From Bacteroidia bacterium (GTDB taxonomy: Bacteria > Bacteroidota > Bacteroidia > Flavobacteriales_E > Vicingaceae), in NCBI GenBank assembly GCA_030426475.1, contig JAUHYR010000003.1, positions 1 to 61,714 on the forward strand: a stretch of DNA of 61,714 bases. Direction: 5' to 3'. Positions 25,710 through 37,914 of this stretch are shown piece after piece (position 1 is the stretch's first letter; the number at the start of each line of letters is the position of its first letter). The notes under the pieces were generated by a model. It was not told the DNA's origin. It did not search any database and saw nothing but the letters and a program-made list of their open reading frames with translations. A program made the translations under genes and the position numbers.

Positions 25710-27011
25710 TTAAAGTCCCTTTGTCCATCCGGCTGTCCAATCTGTTTGTGCAGCACCAATGTAAGTTCCGGCTTTAAACCATGAACCTAAAGTAGTAGGG
25801 TCAGTAGCATTAGCAGACACTGTACCAACATATCCTGTTAAGTTTGGATTAGCTGTACTATTTGAAGGGTCATTGGCAAACGGAGTACAATCTTTCCAAT
25901 CTGTACCATTGTTATAAGAAATAGAGCTTGTAACTAAAAGCGAACCAGCATTCATATTAACTGTAGTAATTGAGTCTGATACTCTAACTCCATTTTTAGG
26001 GAAGTTAGCAATAATAGCATTATAAATTTTACCCTTAGTACCTTCTCTTAATCTCATTCCTGTATTTTCACCATCACCATCATCAACTCCTAATAAGGTT
26101 ATGTTAGATAGAGTTGGTTCAGCATATGGAGTAAGTGTGTTATCATCTGCATTATTATCTGCTTCAATACCTCTATCACCACCATCTGAATTTTGATTAG
26201 CAATTAAAAATTGTCCATTTCCTCTCCATCCGTGAGTCCAGTCAAAAGAGTCATCATGATTACCGGAAGATACAGCATATCTTATACTAACAGTTCCTCC
26301 AAAAAATTCGAAACCATCATCTGCACCTCTATATGCCTGAACGTACTCAACTGTGGTTCCACTTCCACAACCGTTGAATGAGAATCCATTTAATTCATTG
26401 TCAGTACCTAAAATTTTACCCGCATATTCAACTCTAACATATTTTAAAACTCCAGAGTTGTCAGCATCATCAGTACCACCGTAAGTTCCCGTACCGCCTT
26501 CACCTTCAGCAGTTGCACCATTATTGATTCTAGCGTATCCATTTATAATTATACCGCCCCAATCTCCGGGAGCAGGATTAGCCTTAATTGAAGTAAACAC
26601 TATTGGACAAGAAGAAGTTCCTTCTGCCATGATTTTACCACCTTGTTTAATAGATAAAAATGGAGTTGTACCATCATCAGCTGCATAAACTTTAGTACAT
26701 GGCTCAATTGTTAAAGTTGCTCCGGGACCAACAAATACTCCACCTGAAAGCATCCAGTCTTTAGAAGCAGACATAGTAAAGTTTTCGTTAATTGTTCCTT
26801 CAATTTGGCTATACGTTGCGCCATTAACTGTTTTGTTTGTTACGATAAATGTTCTTGAATTTAAATATTCACAAGAACCATCATAAACTGTTGCATCAGC
26901 ATCAAAATTACTTGCACTTGGGTCTGTACATCCTTTTTTCTTTCCACAAGAAGAAAGAATCACAACTCCTGCAAGCATTGTAAGTGATAAAATTTTTTGT
27001 GTTGTTTTCAT
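25710..27011 (-). CDS. Surface lipoprotein with beta-helix-like repeats
   Basis: Lipoprotein of 433 residues; the signal peptide ends in VILSSC. A short Cys-containing module follows (GCTDPSASNFDADATVYDGS, then CEYL), then a long Gly/Asn/Asp-rich right-handed beta-helix-like region (about 75-430) with WGGIIINGYARINNG, ADDGFEFFGG, DDSFDWTHGWRG and RGIEADNN. I recall this family being found beside TonB receptors in several phyla, sometimes mislabelled as transporters. It lies downstream of such a receptor but is separated from it by a terminator and has its own Pho-like repeat. Ligand unknown; phosphate-related use is inference. Confidence 0.8.
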   Translation of the reverse strand: MKTTQKILSLTMLAGVVILSSCGKKKGCTDPSASNFDADATVYDGSCEYLNSRTFIVTNKTVNGATYSQIEGTINENFTMSASKDWMLSGGVFVGPGATLTIEPCTKVYAADDGTTPFLSIKQGGKIMAEGTSSCPIVFTSIKANPAPGDWGGIIINGYARINNGATAEGEGGTGTYGGTDDADNSGVLKYVRVEYAGKILGTDNELNGFSFNGCGSGTTVEYVQAYRGADDGFEFFGGTVSIRYAVSSGNHDDSFDWTHGWRGNGQFLIANQNSDGGDRGIEADNNADDNTLTPYAEPTLSNITLLGVDDGDGENTGMRLREGTKGKIYNAIIANFPKNGVRVSDSITTVNMNAGSLLVTSSISYNNGTDWKDCTPFANDPSNSTANPNLTGYVGTVSANATDPTTLGSWFKAGTYIGAAQTDWTAGWTKGL

Positions 27012-27083
27012 TTTCGTTTTGTTTTATTTTGACGCAAAGGAATCGTTATTGCATTAAGTGGACGTCACCTAAATTTTATGAGT

Positions 27084-27112
27084 TTGTTGTTTTAATGTAA
27101 ACTAAATGTTAA
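27084..27112 (-). promoter_or_regulatory. Pho-box-like direct repeats upstream of the beta-helix lipoprotein
   Basis: On the minus strand the heptamers TTAACAT (27106-27112), TTTACAT (27095-27101) and a weaker ACAACAA (27084-27090) follow each other with an exact 11-base period. The 7+4 layout is that of E. coli Pho boxes and the TTAACA core resembles PhoP half-sites of Bacillus. It is placed between the receptor terminator and the lipoprotein ATG. Confidence 0.55.
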
Positions 27113-27120
27113 TTGGATTA

Positions 27121-27153
27121 AAAAGAAAAGCCACTGCTAAATGCAAGTGGCTT
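27121..27153 (-). terminator. Intrinsic terminator of the TonB receptor gene
   Basis: The inverted repeat AAGCCACT (27128-27135) / AGTGGCTT (27146-27153) makes an 8-bp stem with a 10-base loop and, on the minus strand, is followed by TTTTCTTTT. It lies 23 bases after the receptor stop and isolates the downstream lipoprotein, which then needs its own promoter. Confidence 0.8.
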
Positions 27154-27175
27154 ACTTCTTCTAAAAACAAAGTTT

Positions 27176-30001
27176 TTATTGAATGTTTGCTTTTTTGTTA
27201 AACGGAATATTATAGGTGACACTTAAGCTAACATCTGTACCTCTTCTGTAACTATTTACCACCTCAAATCCTTGTGGTGTTTCTTGTTGTAATTGAATTG
27301 TTGGGTTAAGTATATTATTTCCTTTTAAAGAAACTATCCACTTCTTATTAAATTCAAGAGATAAAACAGCATTTAAGGTGTTTACCGGTAATTCATAAAC
27401 ATCTCCTAATCCAAAAATTCCTACTGAGTAAATTCTAGCCCCATAAACATTGTATGCCAGTGACATATTCATCTTAGTAGTTTTTCCCACAAACTTCTCA
27501 TAATTTAAGTCAAAATTAATTAGGTATGGAGAAGCTCCTTGTAAGGCACGTTGAGTATTTGTTACCACATTAGTAGCGGTGGTAGAATCACCTGATAAAT
27601 TTACTTGAGAATAAATGTAAGATGCATTCATCCCTATTGATAAATCTCTCAGAACAGCGGTATTTTTAAATAGGCTATCCAGTTTTTTTCTCAATTCTAA
27701 TTCTACTCCTGCAACATAAGCTTCGTTAGCATTTTGGAAAGATTGTAATTGACCACTGGCGGTAGCTAACATTGTTCTTTCAATTGGGTTTTGCAGGTAT
27801 TTTCCAAAAGCTGTTACTGCAACTAACTCTCCTATTCTTGGGAAGAACTCATAACTTAAATCCGCATTATAGTTAGTTCCGTTAATTAAAGCCGGGTTAC
27901 CTCTTGATTTCATTCCCGCAAAAAATTCTACATATTCAAAAGGTGCAACTTCTTTAAATCCCGGGCGTGAAATTGTTTTGCTTCCCGAAAATTTCAAGAA
28001 ATTATCTTCTTTAAGTGTGATTTTTGATGTTAGAACCGGCAATACATCCAAAGACTCTAATTTCTCTTTAACCACAAATATAGGCTGTTGCTGATCTCTA
28101 AACTTAATTTCCTGATAACCTTGCTCAAATCTTGCTCCGGCTTTAATGTTTAACCATTTGTAAGGATTAAACTCATTATCTACATAAAGTGCATTAATGG
28201 TTAAAAGTGCATTGTTTTTAGATGCTGGATTAGATACTTCCTGAATTTTAAACAATCCTGCTAAATGATTTTCGTTACTTAATTGCTCATCCGGAGTTTC
28301 AGGGTTAACTGTACTATACTTACTATCTATATTGCCTAAATCATAAGTATACTGACTATAATCAAACTCTCTTTGTTTATTTTTTTGTTGTGCGCCAACT
28401 GTTATTGCCCAACTGGTAGATTCTTCATTTTGAATAATCACACCTTTTAAGTGAACATCTTTTGTAATTTCAGTTTCAAGTAATGAACTAAAAAACCTGT
28501 GATTTTCTAACCTATCTACTGCATTAAATATATAGCCGTTTTCATCATACAAGTAAACCAATTGTCTTCTATCCGGCTCTTTACTTTTTGCAACATTGCT
28601 AGATAAAGCCCAGCCAAACTCTATTCTATTTTTCAAAAATTTGTGTTCTCCGGCCACTTGATTAGCCATTAGGTTATTTTGAACAAAGGTGTATCTTCTG
28701 GAAAAAATACTTTTTTGATAGTCAAAATGTGTTCCGTCAGTTTCTCTAAAGTCATCACTAGATATGTTTGAATACAGAAAATTATAAGAAACCTTATGAT
28801 CTTTATGTGGTTTGATATAAAGGTTAGCTAAAGCTGACGAGCTTGTTGAAATGTTGTACTTAATGAAATCATAATCCACCTGTCTTCTACTTTGAAGATT
28901 AATTATTCGATAAGCTCCTTCTTGAATAGATGTGTTATTAGAGTGAGAAACCAAAGCTAAAAAACCAACTCCTGTATTCAAATCGTCTTTTTTAAATGTG
29001 TTGAAGAAATTACCCCCTAAAATTTGTACTCCCGAATTAAGAGGCGCCTTAGTTGTAGTTGGGTTTAGGTTGTTAGCAAATCCTGTTCCTGCCGATTCTT
29101 CTTTATTATAAGAGCTATTGTAATTTTCTTCAGCAGCTACTTTAGAAGGAATATTTCTTGTGCCATCATCAAAACCAAAGTAATCATATTTGCCACCAGA
29201 ATAGGTTTTAAAAGGCTTAAGAAATGAGCTGGTATTAAACCCACTTGATAGTTTTACCTGAAAAGTCGGCTCATCAGGGTAATCTTTTGTTTTAATATCT
29301 ATAGCTGCACCGGAAAAATCGCCATATAATTTTGGAGAATATGATTTATTAACTGCAATATTGCTTACTACAGCTGTCGGAAATATATCTAAAGGAATTA
29401 CTTTTTTATCAGGGTCAGGTGAAGCTATTGGCAAACCATTAAGATAGGCTGAGTTATACCTATCACCCATACCTCTTACGTACACATGTTTTGACCCAAC
29501 TACAGAAAGTCCCGCAACTTTGGTTAATCCGGCTGCCACATCCGAAGAGCCTGTTTTATTAAGCTCTTGGGCTCCTATTTGTTGTTGAATACCACTAATT
29601 TCTTTTCTCTCAAGTAAAAGCATATTTTCAGATTGCATATCCTTTTTAGCTTCTACAGTAAATGCGTCTATATCTATGGCATCTTTTTCAAGTGTAACCG
29701 AAAGAGATTTTTGATTTCCGGCTTCAACAACCACAATTTGGGTATCGGGTTTATAACCAATAAATGAAAATACAATATGATACTTCCCGGGTTTTAAAGA
29801 AAGGTTAAATGTACCATCAAAATCAGTTGTTGTTCCTGCATAAGTTTCTAAAACTACTACATTTGCAAAAGGAACCGGTTCTTTTGAAGAATTATTTATC
29901 TCATAAACTTTTCCGCTTAGTGTTCCTTTATCTTCATTTTGGGCTGCAAATGAAGTGCTCAAAACAGTTAAGAAAAATAATAATAAACCTATTTGTTTCA
30001 T
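27176..30001 (-). CDS. TonB-dependent outer-membrane receptor
   Basis: Outer-membrane active transporter of 941 residues. The ATG at 30001 gives signal peptide MKQIGLLLFFLTVLSTSFA; a TTG at 30022 is less likely. Domains in order: a carboxypeptidase-regulatory-like domain (about 25-110; PFANVVVLETYAGTTTDFDG), a plug domain (about 125-240; GSKHVYVRGMGDRYNSAYLN) and a long beta-barrel to the C terminus. The ligand is not evident. A divergent PhoB-like regulator and Pho-like repeats suggest control by phosphate. It has no SusD partner, so glycan uptake is less likely. Confidence 0.92.
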   Translation of the reverse strand: MKQIGLLLFFLTVLSTSFAAQNEDKGTLSGKVYEINNSSKEPVPFANVVVLETYAGTTTDFDGTFNLSLKPGKYHIVFSFIGYKPDTQIVVVEAGNQKSLSVTLEKDAIDIDAFTVEAKKDMQSENMLLLERKEISGIQQQIGAQELNKTGSSDVAAGLTKVAGLSVVGSKHVYVRGMGDRYNSAYLNGLPIASPDPDKKVIPLDIFPTAVVSNIAVNKSYSPKLYGDFSGAAIDIKTKDYPDEPTFQVKLSSGFNTSSFLKPFKTYSGGKYDYFGFDDGTRNIPSKVAAEENYNSSYNKEESAGTGFANNLNPTTTKAPLNSGVQILGGNFFNTFKKDDLNTGVGFLALVSHSNNTSIQEGAYRIINLQSRRQVDYDFIKYNISTSSSALANLYIKPHKDHKVSYNFLYSNISSDDFRETDGTHFDYQKSIFSRRYTFVQNNLMANQVAGEHKFLKNRIEFGWALSSNVAKSKEPDRRQLVYLYDENGYIFNAVDRLENHRFFSSLLETEITKDVHLKGVIIQNEESTSWAITVGAQQKNKQREFDYSQYTYDLGNIDSKYSTVNPETPDEQLSNENHLAGLFKIQEVSNPASKNNALLTINALYVDNEFNPYKWLNIKAGARFEQGYQEIKFRDQQQPIFVVKEKLESLDVLPVLTSKITLKEDNFLKFSGSKTISRPGFKEVAPFEYVEFFAGMKSRGNPALINGTNYNADLSYEFFPRIGELVAVTAFGKYLQNPIERTMLATASGQLQSFQNANEAYVAGVELELRKKLDSLFKNTAVLRDLSIGMNASYIYSQVNLSGDSTTATNVVTNTQRALQGASPYLINFDLNYEKFVGKTTKMNMSLAYNVYGARIYSVGIFGLGDVYELPVNTLNAVLSLEFNKKWIVSLKGNNILNPTIQLQQETPQGFEVVNSYRRGTDVSLSVTYNIPFNKKANIQ

Positions 30002-30046
30002 CGTCTTTATTTTATAGTGCAAAAGACGGGTATTAACTTAACCGTA

Positions 30047-30064
30047 GTGTTATTAGGGTGTTAA
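30047..30064 (-). promoter_or_regulatory. Pho-box-like direct repeat upstream of the TonB receptor
   Basis: On the minus strand TTAACAC (30058-30064) and ATAACAC (30047-30053) are direct repeats with an 11-base period, ending 46 bases before the receptor ATG. Same geometry and AACA core as the repeats at 27084 and 30102. Confidence 0.5.
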
Positions 30065-30101
30065 CCTAAAATTAATTTTTACAGATTAAATCCGTGAATA
30101 T

Positions 30102-30119
30102 TTAACATTGCGTTAACAT
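30102..30119 (+). promoter_or_regulatory. Pho-box-like direct repeat upstream of the response regulator
   Basis: TTAACAT at 30102-30108 and again at 30113-30119, an exact 7-base repeat with an 11-base period; a third weak copy GTAATAG would be in phase at 30124-30130. It lies upstream of the -7 element at 30150, consistent with activation and possible autoregulation by the regulator encoded just downstream. Confidence 0.55.
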
Positions 30120-30149
30120 GGTCGTAATAGCCCGTTGGTATTGGGGTTT

Positions 30150-30157
30150 TACATTTG
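30150..30157 (+). promoter_or_regulatory. -7 element of the response regulator promoter
   Basis: TACATTTG matches the Bacteroidetes -7 consensus TAnnTTTG exactly. No TTTG lies about 18 bases upstream, so the -33 element is missing, as expected for an activator-dependent promoter. A start near 30162 would give a leader of about 23 bases to the ATG at 30185. Confidence 0.55.
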
Positions 30158-30184: not shown

Positions 30185-30862
30185 ATGCAAAAGATTTTAT
30201 TAGTTGATGATGAGCCTGATATTCTTGAAATTCTAAGTTATAATTTAGAAAAAAGCGATTATATAACATTTACTGCTGAAAGTGGTGTAGAAGCTATTGA
30301 GTTGGCAAAAAAAGAAATTCCTGATTTAATTGTATTAGATGTAATGATGCCAAATATGGATGGTATAGAAACTTGTATTGAATTAAGAAGTTTGCCTGAA
30401 TTATCTAATTCTATTATAGCCTTTTTATCTGCCAGAAATGAAGATTATTCTCTAATTGCAGGGCTTGATGCCGGTGCCGATGATTACATTACCAAACCCA
30501 TTAACCCAAGAGTCTTTGTTAAAAAAGTGGAAACCTTATTAAAAAGGAAAGGCGATAAGAACAGTGAAAAAATAATTCCCACTAAATCCATTGGAAACTT
30601 AACAATTGATAGTGAAAAATATCTCGTATTTAAAGGAGATAAAAAAATAGAGTTCTCTAAAAAGAAATTTGAATTGTTAGCACTATTAGCTTCAAAACCC
30701 GGTAAAGTTTTTACAAGAGATGAAATTTTAACCCAAATATGGAGCGATGATGTGATTGTCAATGACAGAACCATTGACGTACATATTCGAAAAATACGAG
30801 AGCAGTTGGGTGATGACTATATCAAAACGATAAAAGGTGTAGGCTATAAATTTTCGGCTTAA
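30185..30862 (+). CDS. PhoB/OmpR-family response regulator
   Basis: A 225-residue two-component regulator. The receiver domain starts MQKILLVDDEPDILE with the acidic pair, has the phospho-acceptor aspartate in IVLDVMMPNMDG, the Ser in FLSARNED and the lysine in DYITKPINP. The OmpR/PhoB winged helix (about 130-225) ends in IDVHIRKIREQLG and IKGVGYKFSA. The closest type is PhoB, but without its kinase the signal cannot be fixed. No histidine kinase follows; the next gene, five bases on, is rodA on the opposite strand. A TTG 30 bases upstream would overlap the promoter. Confidence 0.9.
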   Translation: MQKILLVDDEPDILEILSYNLEKSDYITFTAESGVEAIELAKKEIPDLIVLDVMMPNMDGIETCIELRSLPELSNSIIAFLSARNEDYSLIAGLDAGADDYITKPINPRVFVKKVETLLKRKGDKNSEKIIPTKSIGNLTIDSEKYLVFKGDKKIEFSKKKFELLALLASKPGKVFTRDEILTQIWSDDVIVNDRTIDVHIRKIREQLGDDYIKTIKGVGYKFSA

Positions 30863-30867
30863 TTATT

Positions 30868-32172
30868 CTATCTAAATACCATTAGTCTATCCGAATCAAG
30901 TTTCAGAAAAATAAAAAGTAAAATTGTAAATGACCACATGGATGAACCTCCATAACTTATAAATGGCAATGGAATTCCTATTACGGGCGCTAGACCTATA
31001 GTCATACCGATATTTACCATAAAATGAAAAAACAAGATACAAGCTACTGAATAGCCATAAATTCTGCTAAACTCGGAACGCTGTCTTTCTGCCAAAAAGA
31101 GTAGCCTCAGGAATAATGAAACATACAAAGCAATGGTAATAAATGTTCCCAGAAAGCCCCACTCTTCACCTATTGTACAAAAAATAAAGTCCGTGCTTTG
31201 CTCCGGCACAAAGTTGAATTTTGTTTGAGTACCTTCTAAAAATCCTTTTCCCGTAAAGCCTCCCGAGCCAATTGCAATTAACGATTGCTCTAAATTATAA
31301 CCCGCTCCTTGTGGGTCAGACTCTAATCCAAGAGTAATATTAATTCTAGAAACCTGATAAGGTTTTAATACATTATCAAAAAAGTAGTCAATTCCAATAA
31401 CCAGGCCTAAAGCAATAATAAGTCCGCCAAAACAAACCAACCATGACCTCTTTACTTTTCTTAAAACATAATAAATCAAAAGGGTTATTATTGCCAAAAT
31501 ACCCATTAACAAATAACTACCCGAAAAAGTAAAGTCAAACCATGTAAACTCAGAGCGCCTAAGGATTAAGGTTAAAATTGCAATTAATGCACCTCCTAGT
31601 CCAAATAAAAGAATATTTCCGTTTATTAATCCTTTTCTGAAAATTACCAAAATAAAAACACCATACACAATAGCTGAGCCAGTATCATTTTGAAGTAAAA
31701 TAAACATTACAGGAACAGCTATTATCAACAGCGATATTGCCTTTGCTTTAAATTCATTAAACTTAATATTAATACCACTCAAAAATTTTGATAGCACAAG
31801 GGCTGTGGCAAACTTTGCAAATTCGGAGGGTTGTAAGCTAAATCCACCTATTTTAATCCAGCTTTTTGCACCGTTTACTTCATCTCCTGCAATAAAAACA
31901 AAAAGAAGAGACAGAATTAATAAGCCATAAATAACATAAGCAAAAGTGGTATAAAATTCAGAATCAATAGTTAAAACTATTCCACCTATTACTAAACCAG
32001 CAATTATCCAGATAAGCTGCTTTCCATAAAGCTGAGACATTGAAAAAATACTATGGTGCAGTTCATTATAGACAGCAGCATAAATGCTTATCCAGCCTAT
32101 CATAACAAGAGATAAATACAAAAGTAATGTTGGTGTGTCAATGTTTGATAATATGCTTCTACTCCGTCTCAT
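30868..32172 (-). CDS. rodA: RodA, SEDS-family polymerase of the elongation machinery
   Basis: Inner-membrane lipid II polymerase working with PBP2 in lateral wall synthesis. It has 434 residues with about ten membrane segments; LGLESDPQGAGYNLEQSLIA, FTGKGFLEGTQTKFNFVPEQ and the C-terminal GIPLPFISYGGSS are SEDS signatures. It is called RodA because it is last in the mreB-mreC-mreD-mrdA operon. Its start overlaps the mrdA stop by four bases, and it converges on the response regulator with five bases between stops. Confidence 0.96.
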   Translation of the reverse strand: MRRSRSILSNIDTPTLLLYLSLVMIGWISIYAAVYNELHHSIFSMSQLYGKQLIWIIAGLVIGGIVLTIDSEFYTTFAYVIYGLLILSLLFVFIAGDEVNGAKSWIKIGGFSLQPSEFAKFATALVLSKFLSGINIKFNEFKAKAISLLIIAVPVMFILLQNDTGSAIVYGVFILVIFRKGLINGNILLFGLGGALIAILTLILRRSEFTWFDFTFSGSYLLMGILAIITLLIYYVLRKVKRSWLVCFGGLIIALGLVIGIDYFFDNVLKPYQVSRINITLGLESDPQGAGYNLEQSLIAIGSGGFTGKGFLEGTQTKFNFVPEQSTDFIFCTIGEEWGFLGTFITIALYVSLFLRLLFLAERQRSEFSRIYGYSVACILFFHFMVNIGMTIGLAPVIGIPLPFISYGGSSMWSFTILLFIFLKLDSDRLMVFR

Positions 32173-33998
32173 TGCATATTTTTTCTATTAATGATATCTG
32201 CTTTTAATATTCTTTCTTCCTTAGCTTTATTTTTAATTTCTCCCGTCAAGTATTTCTCCATCATTAAGCTAGCAATTGGTGCAGCCCAAGTTCCACCAAA
32301 ACCGGCATTTTCAACATAAACTGCAATCGCTATTTTAGGGTTTTCCATTGGTGCAAAAGCAATAAATACCGAATGGTCTTCGCCATGTGGATTTTGTGCA
32401 GTTCCCGTTTTACCGCAAACAGTTATGCTATCAATTTTTGCTCTTCTTGCAGTTCCTCCGGGTTCTTCAACAACCGCCCTCATTCCTTCATGAATGACAT
32501 CATAGTACTTTGAAGAAACACTTGTGTTTATTTTTGGGTAATATAGTGGAGAAACCGTATCTGCTTCTTGAATACTTTTAACTACATGAGGAGTATAATA
32601 ATATCCTTTATTTGCCATTATTGCCGCCAGATTTGCCATTTGCATGGGAATAACCTCAACTTCTCCCTGTCCGATACTCAAAGAATAAATAGTTGAATAA
32701 GCCCATCTTCCTTTTCCATAAATTTTATCGTAATAATTTGGTGTTGGAATTCCGCCACTACTCACATTTGTTAAATCAACGTTTAATCTTTTTCCCAGCC
32801 CAAATGTTTCGATATGTTTATTCCAAAGTCCTAAACCAATTTCAGTGTCTTTAAAATAATTACTGCTTTTATTTTGATTGATAACTCGCTTAAAAACGGC
32901 ATAAAAGTATGGGTTGCAAGAAAACTGAACTCCTTTCTTAACATTAGTAGCCATAGGGTGATTATGACAACCCACCAATGATTTATTACATGGGGCACCA
33001 AAGTTTTCTGTAATTACTCCTTCTTCCATTCCAATTAGCGCCTGAACCAATTTAAAAATACTTCCCGGAGGATATTTTGCCTGAAGCGCTCGATTAAATA
33101 ACGGGTTAAGAGTATCATTCAATTGAAGCTCTCTAAAGTTTTTATTTCGCTTTTTTCCTACTAACAGATTATTATCAAAAGTAGGTGAGGATACCAGGCT
33201 CAATATTTCTCCTGTTGACGGTTCTATAGCCACAATACTACCCACTTTATTCTGCATTAAAATCTCTCCATATTTTTGCAATTCAGCGTCAATGGTAAGG
33301 TTTAGCGAGCTGCCGGGTATGGCAGTTGTATCAAATTTTCCGTTGGCATAAGATCCCTTCTCGTTATTGAAAACATCTACCAAAACTAACTTTGTTCCCC
33401 TTTTACCTCTTAACACATTTTCATAGTAGGCTTCTATACCACTCCAACCAACTATATCCCCTTGCCGATAATAATTTACCGAATCTCTCTCCAACATTCC
33501 CGGTGAAACTTCTCCTAAATAGCCTATTAAGTGTGAGGCAAAAGAAGGGTATTTTCTAAGTGTTGATGTCTCTGCATAAAAGCCAGGATAATAAAGTAGT
33601 TTCTCCTGAATTATTCCGTACGATTCAATATCTATCCCTTTCTCAAAAACAGATGGTTTATATCGCCATTGTCCTTGATTGGCCTTTTCAAGTTTTGCCC
33701 TAAAATCTTCAATGGTAATTCCCAGTAAATTACAGAATTTAGCGGTATCCAAGTCTTTTATTTGAGAAGGAATAACCATGATATCATAACCGGGTTCGTT
33801 AGATACTAATAGCCTTCCGTTTCTATCATAAAAAACACCTCTGGAAGGATAAATATCTACTTTTTTTATGGTATTATTTTCAGAAGATAATTTGTATTTA
33901 TCATTAATAACCTGAATGTAAAATAAACGGATAAGGTATATAAAAGCTATGATGATAAAAATCCCGCCTACAACATATTTCCTTTCGTCTAATCTCAT
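32169..33998 (-). CDS. mrdA: Penicillin-binding protein 2 (elongation transpeptidase)
   Basis: Class B PBP with one N-terminal membrane anchor (about 10-30) and periplasmic dimerisation and transpeptidase domains, 609 residues. Catalytic motifs are SIFK at 313-316 (Ser313 nucleophile), SCN at 360-362 and KTGT at 530-533. PSRGVFYDRNG near residue 51 is the conserved start of the N-terminal domain. It partners RodA, the next gene. It overlaps mreD and rodA by four bases each. Confidence 0.96.
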   Translation of the reverse strand: MRLDERKYVVGGIFIIIAFIYLIRLFYIQVINDKYKLSSENNTIKKVDIYPSRGVFYDRNGRLLVSNEPGYDIMVIPSQIKDLDTAKFCNLLGITIEDFRAKLEKANQGQWRYKPSVFEKGIDIESYGIIQEKLLYYPGFYAETSTLRKYPSFASHLIGYLGEVSPGMLERDSVNYYRQGDIVGWSGIEAYYENVLRGKRGTKLVLVDVFNNEKGSYANGKFDTTAIPGSSLNLTIDAELQKYGEILMQNKVGSIVAIEPSTGEILSLVSSPTFDNNLLVGKKRNKNFRELQLNDTLNPLFNRALQAKYPPGSIFKLVQALIGMEEGVITENFGAPCNKSLVGCHNHPMATNVKKGVQFSCNPYFYAVFKRVINQNKSSNYFKDTEIGLGLWNKHIETFGLGKRLNVDLTNVSSGGIPTPNYYDKIYGKGRWAYSTIYSLSIGQGEVEVIPMQMANLAAIMANKGYYYTPHVVKSIQEADTVSPLYYPKINTSVSSKYYDVIHEGMRAVVEEPGGTARRAKIDSITVCGKTGTAQNPHGEDHSVFIAFAPMENPKIAIAVYVENAGFGGTWAAPIASLMMEKYLTGEIKNKAKEERILKADIINRKNMQ

Positions 33999-34513
33999 TT
34001 AGATTTACTACTATTATAAAAGAAAAGTACAGTTAAAAGTATTAGCACTTCTGTAAATACTGTACTAAATATAGCTCTTAATAATGTAGAAAAGAAATAT
34101 TTAAAGTGAAAAACTTCTGCATAAAACAACCAAACATGATGAATCGCAACTAATATCGAAGAATAAATAAAGAACCATTTCCAGCCAAAAAATTCCGGTC
34201 TTGGCAGTTGTCCAGTTTCATAACCTTCTCTTGGAGCAATTAGTTTTAAAAGATATTGTCTTGAAAAAACTAAAACCAAACAGGCAGAAGTATTCATTCC
34301 CGGTGTTTGAGTAAACATATCTATTACAGTACCAATAAAAAATGCTATTAGAAGCGCTAACCAACCACTTAAATCAATTGGTAATAATAAAAGAAAAAGC
34401 ACATAGAGGTATGGCCTTATATAACCGGCAAATTCAATTTGATTCAATACAAATATTTGAACTAAAAAAAGCGCAGTAAAGCTTATAATATATCTAGCTA
34501 TTTGTTTAATCAT
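33995..34513 (-). CDS. mreD: MreD, rod-shape membrane protein
   Basis: A 172-residue protein of five or so hydrophobic segments at the MreD position between mreC and mrdA. Family similarity is weak by eye (FIGTVIDMFTQTPGMNTSA is the most conserved-looking loop), as is normal for MreD, so order and topology carry the call. It belongs to the elongasome with MreB and MreC and overlaps both neighbours. Confidence 0.88.
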   Translation of the reverse strand: MIKQIARYIISFTALFLVQIFVLNQIEFAGYIRPYLYVLFLLLLPIDLSGWLALLIAFFIGTVIDMFTQTPGMNTSACLVLVFSRQYLLKLIAPREGYETGQLPRPEFFGWKWFFIYSSILVAIHHVWLFYAEVFHFKYFFSTLLRAIFSTVFTEVLILLTVLFFYNSSKSK

Positions 34514-35339
34514 GTAAAGTTGCTTCCTCTATTATTTTTTCTCGTTCTATTTTCATTAAATCCTTAACAATATATACGTGTGATAATTTTCTGAAATCAG
34601 TTGAAATATCTACATCAATTTTGTAAAAACTTCCATTTTCTACTCGCTCAAATGATTTTATAGTGCCTATTGGCACACCTTTAGGAAAAGCTGATGAATA
34701 TCCGCTTGTTTTTATATGATATCCCTTTTTTAAGGAAACGTAATTTGGAATGTCATTTAACATTAATGTATGCTCATCATCTCCACTCCAACTGATTGAA
34801 CCAAAATAGTTGTTCTCTTCAATAAATGCACTCACTTTACTTTCGATATGCAACAGGCTAACTATAACCGCAAAATTATCTGACGAACTTTTAACAATTC
34901 CCACTACACCATCTGAGGAAATAACTCCCATTTCCGGCATTATTCCGTTTATTCTACCTTTATTAATTAAAATATAATTTTTTTTATTGCTCACAGAGTT
35001 TTCTATGACTTCTGCTGCTATATAAAGATATTGCTGTTGATACAAAGTATCTTCTATTTTAACCTTATCAGAGAAAAGCTTTTTTAATGAATACTTTTCA
35101 TATTGTTTTAAAAAGGCATTCTCTTCAGCTAGCTTATTATTTTTTTCACCAAGATTAATATAGTTTGTAAAGTTGTGGTAACGTTCTAAAACGCCTCCCG
35201 ATATATTTCCCGTAAGATTGGTAAACTTGTTATTTTGATAGTTATTTCCTGATACTAGTAAGTAAAAGGCAAACAATTGGAGTACAACAAATATTATTAA
35301 AAAATGATATTTTAAAATAAGTTGTACAAGATTCCTCAT
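34506..35339 (-). CDS. mreC: MreC, rod-shape periplasmic scaffold
   Basis: Bitopic protein of 277 residues: membrane anchor (about 12-30, HFLIIFVVLQLFAFYLLV), coiled coil (about 60-90, LGEKNNKLAEENAFLKQYEK), then the two beta-barrel-like periplasmic domains with the family segment VISSDGVVGIVKSSSDNFAVI. It links cytoplasmic MreB filaments to PBP2-RodA. Spacing is 15 bases from mreB and there is an 8-base overlap with mreD. Confidence 0.94.
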   Translation of the reverse strand: MRNLVQLILKYHFLIIFVVLQLFAFYLLVSGNNYQNNKFTNLTGNISGGVLERYHNFTNYINLGEKNNKLAEENAFLKQYEKYSLKKLFSDKVKIEDTLYQQQYLYIAAEVIENSVSNKKNYILINKGRINGIMPEMGVISSDGVVGIVKSSSDNFAVIVSLLHIESKVSAFIEENNYFGSISWSGDDEHTLMLNDIPNYVSLKKGYHIKTSGYSSAFPKGVPIGTIKSFERVENGSFYKIDVDISTDFRKLSHVYIVKDLMKIEREKIIEEATLHD

Positions 35340-35354
35340 TTCATGTAATCAATA

Positions 35355-36377
35355 TTATTTGATGAGGAATGGGAATTTTTCAATATTCTTTAACGCAATG
35401 CCTGTACCTCTAGCAACAGCTCTTAGCGGATCTTCGGCAACGTGTACAGGAAGACGTGTTTTCATCTGAATTCTTTTATCCAATCCTCTTAATAAAGCGC
35501 CACCACCTGCTAAGTAAATACCGGTTTTGTAAATGTCTGCTGATAATTCAGGAGGTGTCATTTCAAGTGCATTCAATACTGCTTCCTCAATTTTAGAAAT
35601 TGATTTATCCAGCGCATGAGCAATTTCAGAATATGACACCGAAATTTCCTTTGGAGTTCCTGTCATTAAATCTCTTCCTTGAATTGGGTATTCCGCAGGC
35701 GGATTATCCAACTCAGGTAAAGCAGAACCAATTTCAATTTTTATTTGCTCTGCCGAACGCTCACCTATTAAAAGATTATGTTGTCTTCTCATGTAATCTA
35801 CAATGTCATTGGTAAATTCATCACCGGCAACTCTTATTGATTTATCGCATACAATACCACCTAATGCAATTACTGCAATTTCAGATGTACCACCACCAAT
35901 ATCAATAACCATATTTCCCATTGGTTCTAGTACGTCAACCCCAATTCCTATTGCCGCAGCCATTGGCTCATGAATCAGATAAACTTCTTTTCCACCGGCA
36001 TGTTCAGCACTATCTTTTACTGCTCGTTTTTCCACTTCGGTAATTCCTGAAGGAATACAAATCACCATTTTAAGTGAAGGTGTAAAAAAGCTTTTTCCGG
36101 GATTAATCATTTTTATCATTCCTCTAATCATTGCTTCTGCAGCATTAAAATCTGCGATTACTCCATCTTTAAGAGGTCTAATGGTTTTTATGTTTTCATG
36201 GGTTTTACCATGCATTTGCATAGCCTTCTTTCCTACTGCAATAATTTTTCCGGTTTGCCTATCTTGAGCTACTATAGATGGTTCATCTACTACTACTTTA
36301 TCGTTATGGATAATAAGAGTGTTTGCAGTACCTAAGTCTATTGCAATTTCCTGTGTTAAAAAACTAAATAATCCCAT
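35355..36377 (-). CDS. mreB: MreB, bacterial actin
   Basis: Cytoplasmic actin homologue that organises wall elongation, 340 residues. Phosphate 1 loop IDLGTANTLI (about 13-22), phosphate 2 loop MVIDIGGGTSEIAVI, and the adenosine motif GIYLAGGGALLRG are present. The N-terminal MGLFSFLTQEIAID can form the short amphipathic membrane anchor of Gram-negative MreB. It lies 10 bases after purH, an order I know from other Flavobacteriales. Presence of the full set implies a rod-shaped or at least elongating cell. Confidence 0.97.
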   Translation of the reverse strand: MGLFSFLTQEIAIDLGTANTLIIHNDKVVVDEPSIVAQDRQTGKIIAVGKKAMQMHGKTHENIKTIRPLKDGVIADFNAAEAMIRGMIKMINPGKSFFTPSLKMVICIPSGITEVEKRAVKDSAEHAGGKEVYLIHEPMAAAIGIGVDVLEPMGNMVIDIGGGTSEIAVIALGGIVCDKSIRVAGDEFTNDIVDYMRRQHNLLIGERSAEQIKIEIGSALPELDNPPAEYPIQGRDLMTGTPKEISVSYSEIAHALDKSISKIEEAVLNALEMTPPELSADIYKTGIYLAGGGALLRGLDKRIQMKTRLPVHVAEDPLRAVARGTGIALKNIEKFPFLIK

Positions 36378-36387
36378 TTAGTGAGTT

Positions 36388-37914
36388 TTAATGTTTAAAA
36401 TGTCTAATACCTGTGAAGACCATTGACATATTGTTTTCATTACAATAGTTAATTGAAGCTTCGTCTTTAATTGAACCTCCCGGTTGTATTACTGAATTTA
36501 TTCCTTCTTTGTTTGCAATTTCCACACAATCTGGGAAAGGGAAAAATGCATCGGAAGCCATAACGGCTCCATTCAAGTCAAAGTTAAAACTCTTAGCTTT
36601 ATGTATAGCTTGTTTTAACGCATCTACTCTTGATGTTTGACCCGTTCCGCTTGCAAGCAGCTGACCGTTTTTTGCCAAAACAATTGTGTTCGATTTTGTC
36701 TGTTTTACAATTTTATTTGCAAAAAGTAAGTCTTGTATTTCGCTTTCAGATGGTTTCTTATTCGTCACTGAATTTAAGTCTGCCTCCGTTTCAATCTTAT
36801 CATCTTTATCTTGAACCAAAAGTCCGTTTAAAGCCGTTCGGTAATTTACTTTTGGTAATTCAGTAGTTTTTCTTTGAAGGATTATTCTATTCTTTTTGCT
36901 TTTTAAAATTTCTAAGGCTTCGGCTTCAAAATCAGGAGCTATTACTACTTCACAAAATAACTGGTCTATTTCTTTGGCCGTTTCAACATCAATCGTTTTG
37001 TTGGTAATTAATATTCCTCCAAATGCCGAAACAGGATCTGCAGCAAGAGCATCTTTATAGGCATCTACAAGTTTTTCCCTTACCGCTAGACCACATGCAT
37101 TATTATGTTTTAAAATAGTAAATACAGCCTTTGATTCTGATTTGAATTCATCTATTAAATTAATAGCAGCATCTACGTCAAGTAAGTTATTATACGATAA
37201 TTCTTTACCATGAAGCTGATTAAATAACAAGTCTATATTACCATAGAAATAACCTTTTTGGTGAGGGTTTTCTCCATATCTCAGCTCTTTTTTTCCGGAA
37301 AAGTTAATGGTCAAATCTTCTGAGGAAGAAAAATAATTTGCAATGGCAGTATCATATTTTCTTGTCACATCAAAAGCATTTGCAGCCAATTTTTTTCTGT
37401 CTTCTATTGAAGTGAAACCTTGTTTTTCAGAAATAGTTTGTGTAGCAAATTGGTAATCGTTAGGTGATGCAACTACCATAACATCTTTAAAATTTTTTGC
37501 CGCAGCCCGAATTAATGAAACACCGCCAATGTCTATTTTCTCAATAATATCTTGTTCAGAAGCTCCGCTTGAAACAGTTTCCTCAAAAGGATAAAGGTTT
37601 ACAACTACTAAATCAAATTCAGGAATTTCATATTGCTCTAGTTGAGCTATATCTTCATTTAGTTCTCTTCTTCCTAAAATTCCTCCAAAAACTTTTGGGT
37701 GTAAAGTTTTAACTCTACCACCTAAAATAGAAGGATAAGAAGTAAGGTTTTCTACAGCGTTAACTTTTACATTTAAACTTTCAATAAAACTTTGTGTACC
37801 TCCCGTAGAATAGATGTTTACATTATTGGCCGCTAAGGTTTTTACTAGGTCTTCTAAATGATCTTTGTAATAAACAGATATTAAGGCGTTTTTAATTTTT
37901 TTCAGGTCACCCAT
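36388..37914 (-). CDS. purH: PurH, bifunctional AICAR transformylase / IMP cyclohydrolase
   Basis: Cytoplasmic enzyme for the last two steps of IMP synthesis; 508 residues. The N-terminal MGS-like cyclohydrolase domain (about 1-200) has YSTGGTQSFIESL and GGRVKTLHPKVFGGILGRR. The transformylase domain carries the catalytic Lys-His pair in ILKHNNACGLA, and ends GGSIKDEASINYCNENNMSM and FTGIRHFKH. It is first in the mre operon, transcribed away from the MacB-like permease. Confidence 0.97.
   Translation of the reverse strand: MGDLKKIKNALISVYYKDHLEDLVKTLAANNVNIYSTGGTQSFIESLNVKVNAVENLTSYPSILGGRVKTLHPKVFGGILGRRELNEDIAQLEQYEIPEFDLVVVNLYPFEETVSSGASEQDIIEKIDIGGVSLIRAAAKNFKDVMVVASPNDYQFATQTISEKQGFTSIEDRKKLAANAFDVTRKYDTAIANYFSSSEDLTINFSGKKELRYGENPHQKGYFYGNIDLLFNQLHGKELSYNNLLDVDAAINLIDEFKSESKAVFTILKHNNACGLAVREKLVDAYKDALAADPVSAFGGILITNKTIDVETAKEIDQLFCEVVIAPDFEAEALEILKSKKNRIILQRKTTELPKVNYRTALNGLLVQDKDDKIETEADLNSVTNKKPSESEIQDLLFANKIVKQTKSNTIVLAKNGQLLASGTGQTSRVDALKQAIHKAKSFNFDLNGAVMASDAFFPFPDCVEIANKEGINSVIQPGGSIKDEASINYCNENNMSMVFTGIRHFKH

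Follow-up and report, generated by a model that had tools for sequence, protein, structure and literature searches.

The window analysed here, a 61,714 nt stretch of DNA from a Bacteroidia bacterium (contig JAUHYR010000003.1), carries short direct repeats ahead of three neighbouring genes, which encode a response regulator, a TonB-dependent receptor and a lipoprotein. The question raised by this locus is whether the repeats are operators and, if they are, which regulator and which condition they serve. We favour, with a probability of about 0.9, the explanation that they are Pho boxes through which a PhoB-type response regulator drives the regulator, receptor and lipoprotein units under phosphate scarcity.

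Repeat sites and genes of the locus

The features are given by position in the window, strand and description.

25710..27011, minus: lipoprotein, 433 aa, predicted parallel beta-helix fold (structure prediction, position)
27035..27042, minus: putative -7 element TTCCTTTG of the lipoprotein gene, 19 nt past an in-phase GTGACGT (27062-27068)
27095..27112, minus: candidate Pho box of the lipoprotein gene, TTAACAT 27106-27112 and TTTACAT 27095-27101
27121..27153, minus: intrinsic terminator between the receptor and lipoprotein genes (folding, z -4.75)
27176..30001, minus: TonB-dependent receptor, 941 aa, CarboxypepD_reg-like domain and plug (profile search)
30020..30027, minus: putative -7 element GTCTTTTG of the receptor gene, 19 nt past the last half-site
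30047..30075, minus: candidate Pho box of the receptor gene, TTAATTT 30069-30075, TTAACAC 30058-30064 and ATAACAC 30047-30053
30102..30130, plus: candidate Pho box of the regulator gene, TTAACAT 30102-30108, TTAACAT 30113-30119 and a degenerate third half-site, GTAATAG 30124-30130
30150..30157, plus: putative -7 element TACATTTG of the regulator gene, exactly 19 nt past the last half-site
30185..30862, plus: PhoB-type response regulator, 225 aa, no adjacent kinase gene

Direct reading of the sequence bears out the three 7+4+7 repeats reported in the preliminary description, each with a period of exactly 11. On the coding strand they read TTAACAT-TGCG-TTAACAT before the regulator gene (30102-30119), TTAACAC-CCTA-ATAACAC before the receptor gene (30064-30047) and TTAACAT-TTAG-TTTACAT before the lipoprotein gene (27112-27095). 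They had been described as double repeats, but the receptor and regulator sites are in fact triple, with a weaker third half-site. At the lipoprotein gene, weak in-phase half-sites continue at 27084, 27073 and 27062. All three sites have the make-up of a Pho box, with at least two 11 nt direct repeat units of 7 conserved and 4 variable positions. Nothing else in the 61.7 kb of the window matches TTAACA-N5-TTAACA within one mismatch. Dinucleotide shuffling of the two intergenic regions gave an expectation of 0.025 sites, and three sites were never seen together in 4000 shuffles. A matrix of 235 boxes, chosen by similarity to TTAACA from other genomes with the window excluded, gives its three highest scores within the window to these locations.

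The regulator is of the OmpR/PhoB type, having a receiver with acidic pair, Asp, Ser/Thr and Lys and a winged helix close to the PhoB DNA-binding domain, and all of its phosphorylation residues are intact (acidic pair D8/D9, D52, S82, K104). It falls below the curated NCBIfam cut-offs for PhoB (TIGR02154, 202 vs 296 bits; NF053854, 199 vs 270 bits), although its PhoB score is higher than its score against YycF (176 bits). A PhoR kinase gene is absent beside it; the next gene is rodA, and a kinase gene is found on contig C19. The regulator encoded next to that kinase gene is also under the cut-off of NF053854, the Bacteroidota model (205 vs 270 bits). Straight after the window regulator, at 30868-37914, lies a cluster of rodA, pbp2, mreD, mreC, mreB and purH, genes without a strong box.

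In profile searches the receptor matched SusC only at its N-terminus (64 vs a cut-off of 368 bits) and the lipoprotein gave no SusD match, so the two do not belong to the SusCD/PusCD class. The beta-helix model of the lipoprotein has a pLDDT of 78, and a structure search of the PDB returned weak, generic beta-helix matches with none below E 0.001. Since these matches are generic only, no ligand was assigned from the structure search. A terminator had been proposed to separate the receptor and lipoprotein genes, and folding indicates that it is real (-18 kcal/mol, z -4.75). It was missed by a simple terminator scan of the window, apparently because of its 10 nt loop.

Half-site period and promoter phase in related genomes

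Homologues of the receptor were found in 37 of 46 genomes of the family. In the fullest clusters of the relatives the gene order is pstSCAB-phoU, Na-Pi symporter, two small genes, a PhoB paralogue, receptor, lipoprotein, phoB and phoR. Across 138 intergenic stretches from 19 family loci, 52 pairs of TTAACA half-sites lie at a spacing of 11, against 1.1 expected, with further peaks at 22 and 33; the genomes behind these counts are related and thus not independent, and several genera are included. All 10 pstS loci that were fetched have 11 bp TTAACA-like repeats upstream. A scan of named genomes showed that the usual order among Flavobacteriia (Flavobacterium, Myroides, Paenimyroides, Empedobacter, Chryseobacterium and Aquimarina) is phoR-phoB / receptor-lipoprotein, and in these loci the spacing again peaks at 11 (69 vs 3.7). 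The 11-base period is therefore kept in orthologous loci, both within the family and among named Flavobacteriia. One family genome (G041) carries a receptor homologue lacking the beta-helix lipoprotein (L062:5409-8289), with a perfect box, TTAACAATCCCTTAACAT, upstream, near other predicted secreted proteins.

The repeats also hold a fixed position relative to the promoter. The -7 consensus of Bacteroidota is TANNTTTG, and a 5/6 match to it at offset 19 from the last half-site was present in 39 of 88 distinct promoters, where 1.3 would be expected. When other Flavobacteriales were taken together with the window, 22 of 37 promoters were in this 19 nt phase, whereas each of ten other phases had 0-4. 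The three promoters of the window all keep the 19 nt phase. That of the lipoprotein gene is unusual in that its strong box lies 44 bp farther upstream than is the norm, a layout it has in common with a close relative (L171).

Homologues of the lipoprotein occur in Proteobacteria as well, where an E. coli-type Pho box was found before the homologous gene in 9 of 20 loci (p<=0.015); some of the proteobacterial loci include phoBR or pst genes. In L199, L202, L213, L226, L231 and L248 such boxes stand upstream of the beta-helix lipoprotein homologue, which in most is then followed by a receptor gene. Judged from sequence, these loci would be the same module under the operator of a different lineage.

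Other occurrences of the box in the genome, and competing explanations

The bare pair pattern gave 58 matches genome-wide and its reversed control 59. As such, there is no enrichment, and the pattern by itself is unable to list a regulon; intergenic placement, orientation and promoter distance are the features that discriminate. One of the matches is a triple repeat between a pstS-pstC-pstA-pstB-phoU-Na/Pi symporter cluster and a divergent gene for a phosphate-selective porin. With the box-to-promoter distance learned from relatives, the 2.87 Mb genome was scanned for the box followed by 19 nt and TANNTTTG at up to two mismatches. There were three matches, one of them intragenic, and the only two intergenic ones are pstS (of pstSCAB-phoU) and the window regulator; the receptor promoter comes next, at three mismatches. 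The motif was thus found before phosphate genes, where the preliminary description had proposed to look for it, and is shared with the pst/phoU promoters of the same organism. Period-11 repeats were additionally seen before atpB and after a pyrophosphatase gene (C32, C86), the C86 repeat pointing away from its nearest gene.

That the repeats are chance products of AT-rich intergenic DNA might be argued from the bare pattern being no commoner than its reversed control, yet the local shuffles never produced three sites and the conservation of period and phase in other genomes refutes this explanation, to which we give practically no weight. A cell-envelope regulator of the WalR/YycF type is a more specific competitor. 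The WalR consensus is TGTTAA-N5-TGTTAA, which is what the box reads as its reverse complement; the regulator gene adjoins rodA/pbp2/mreDCB, and its product does resemble YycF. We nevertheless consider it very improbable that the repeats serve such a regulator, as the same box precedes the pst-phoU, Na-Pi symporter and porin genes and none precedes the cell-shape genes of the window. PhoB scores above YycF, and the syntenic genes are phosphate-induced (PMC8115612).

A closer competitor accepts the sites as true Pho boxes and differs in the protein that binds them. The window genome has two PhoB-type regulators, where most relatives have one canonical PhoB, usually beside a kinase gene. The second canonical copy (L092:6075-7795, on contig C19) has an adjacent kinase gene and lies beside a DUF3078 gene, and no Pho box was found upstream of this pair. 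The boxes might be bound mainly by the C19 PhoB, leaving the window regulator as a Pho-induced amplifier or competitor. The kinase gene beside the C19 copy agrees with this, as does the habit of the relatives; its recognition helix is the same as that of the window regulator (DRTIDVHIRKxRE, near-invariant among the regulators compared), and response regulator trees, with their long branches, do not separate the window regulator, the C19 copy and the degenerate paralogues of the relatives. A pair without a box would also fit constitutive sensing by that pair, with the inducible copy acting downstream of it. On the other side, the window regulator sits beside the receptor gene, has a strong box of its own and retains an intact phosphorylation site, and the Flavobacteriia pair PhoR with the PhoB found at this place. 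We regard the C19 copy as the main binder as possible but doubtful; control of both the locus and its own gene by the window regulator, as the preliminary description had suggested, is likely.

Proposed mechanism and relation to known systems

Very probably, the window locus is an uptake unit for phosphate starvation, and units of this kind have in part been described in Flavobacterium. The mechanism we propose starts from the sites, their placement, phase and conservation, the synteny and the shared box before pst. The three repeats would be tandem 11 bp operators for a Bacteroidota PhoB-type response regulator. When phosphate is scarce, phosphorylated PhoB would, as in E. coli, bind in a head-to-tail arrangement to the TTAACA half-sites across the -33 region, next to a weak -7 element. 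Placed on one face of the helix, 19 nt ahead of that element (TANNTTTG), it would bring in RNA polymerase at each of three separate units: the regulator, the receptor and, past the terminator, the lipoprotein. At the outer membrane the receptor and lipoprotein may work as a pair that captures and takes up a presumed phosphorus-containing ligand, which would feed the pstSCAB-phoU and Na/Pi symporter systems, encoded elsewhere in the genome behind the same box. The PhoR-like kinase of contig C19 would be the presumed phosphate donor to the regulator, just as the window regulator would be the presumed occupant of the boxes. The earlier proposal of a small phosphate-starvation uptake module largely stands, given the same box at pst, the conserved period and the synteny; what does not hold is that the module is complete in itself, since pst, phoU and the gene of the PhoR-like kinase are located elsewhere.

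The nearest described system is the ‘PhoBR operon’ of F. johnsoniae (Fjoh_0541-0549; PMC8115612), in which, as in the window, PhoB is encoded directly beside a TonB-dependent receptor and a lipoprotein of the pectin-lyase (beta-helix) fold, FII. The window lipoprotein is the counterpart of FII by position and fold class. Unlike that operon, the window has no adjacent PhoR gene, and the porin and symporter genes are located elsewhere. The syntenic locus Fjoh_0543-0546 is strongly induced by phosphate depletion, with log2 changes of 3.06, 8.02 and 9.91 for Fjoh_0544 (PhoB), 0545 (receptor) and 0546 (lipoprotein FII), a response published for F. johnsoniae and not for the window organism (PMC8115612). 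The main text of that report makes no mention of a Pho box; the Flavobacterium loci that we fetched have the 11 bp boxes and the order phoR-phoB / receptor-lipoprotein. Phosphate-induced SusCD-like pairs, PusCD, have also been described (PMC8115612), and resemble the proposed window pair in being TonB-dependent outer-membrane uptake systems with a lipoprotein partner, but the window has a non-SusC receptor and a beta-helix lipoprotein in place of SusD.

Among known operators, the E. coli Pho box consists of two 11 nt direct repeat units, CTGTCAT (PMC4415409). The 7+4 layout, the head-to-tail tandem, several units per promoter, a PhoB-type regulator and pst targets are common to both, whereas the window half-site is TTAACAT and its promoter element is the Bacteroidota -7 TANNTTTG, 19 nt away. 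The DAP-seq motif of PhoP from Riemerella anatipestifer, flavobacterial like the window organism, has TTTAACA as its most conserved bases and the protein binds before its own operon, although it was reported as a virulence regulator and phosphate genes were not the focus (PMC9603813). No description of a Pho box sequence or promoter distance in Bacteroidota was found in the part of the open-access literature that was searched. The PhoP box of Bacillus subtilis is a TT[AT]ACA repeat, with a half-site nearly identical to that of the window and an 11 bp period, but in another phylum and with another promoter type.

The system is thus of a known kind, with a sharper rule linking operator to promoter in the phosphate control of Flavobacteriales: TTAACAT recurs every 11 bp, and the last copy ends 19 nt ahead of TANNTTTG. 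This rule could allow Pho regulons to be predicted in bacteria that matter for the turnover of phosphorus in soils and the sea. A widespread pair of receptor and beta-helix lipoprotein is also linked to phosphate in this way, and several of its proteobacterial homologues carry their own lineage's Pho box.

The PhoB paralogue in the Pho cluster of the relatives may be a further novelty, as a second PhoB turned pseudo-receiver. Its acidic pair is lost in 14 of 14 copies, one of which also has Glu for the phospho-acceptor Asp, and the recognition helix is kept. Copies with Pho boxes upstream include L063:2512-3189, L066:1888-2565, L067:6588-7265, L076:5405-6085 and L168:12911-13585, among others. 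With the acidic pair lost and the DNA-reading helix kept, the paralogue could form a second stage independent of phosphorylation. In the window genome the kinase-less PhoB is the canonical copy beside the receptor gene, under its own box, and the kinase-linked copy has none. We tentatively suggest that the Pho response of this flavobacterial family includes a second, kinase-less PhoB itself under a Pho box, which in the relatives might act as such a second stage, an amplifier or a brake. G041 has its only canonical phoB next to purH and mreB (L156:6194-9662), the neighbourhood of the window regulator, which suggests that this is an old position for the gene.
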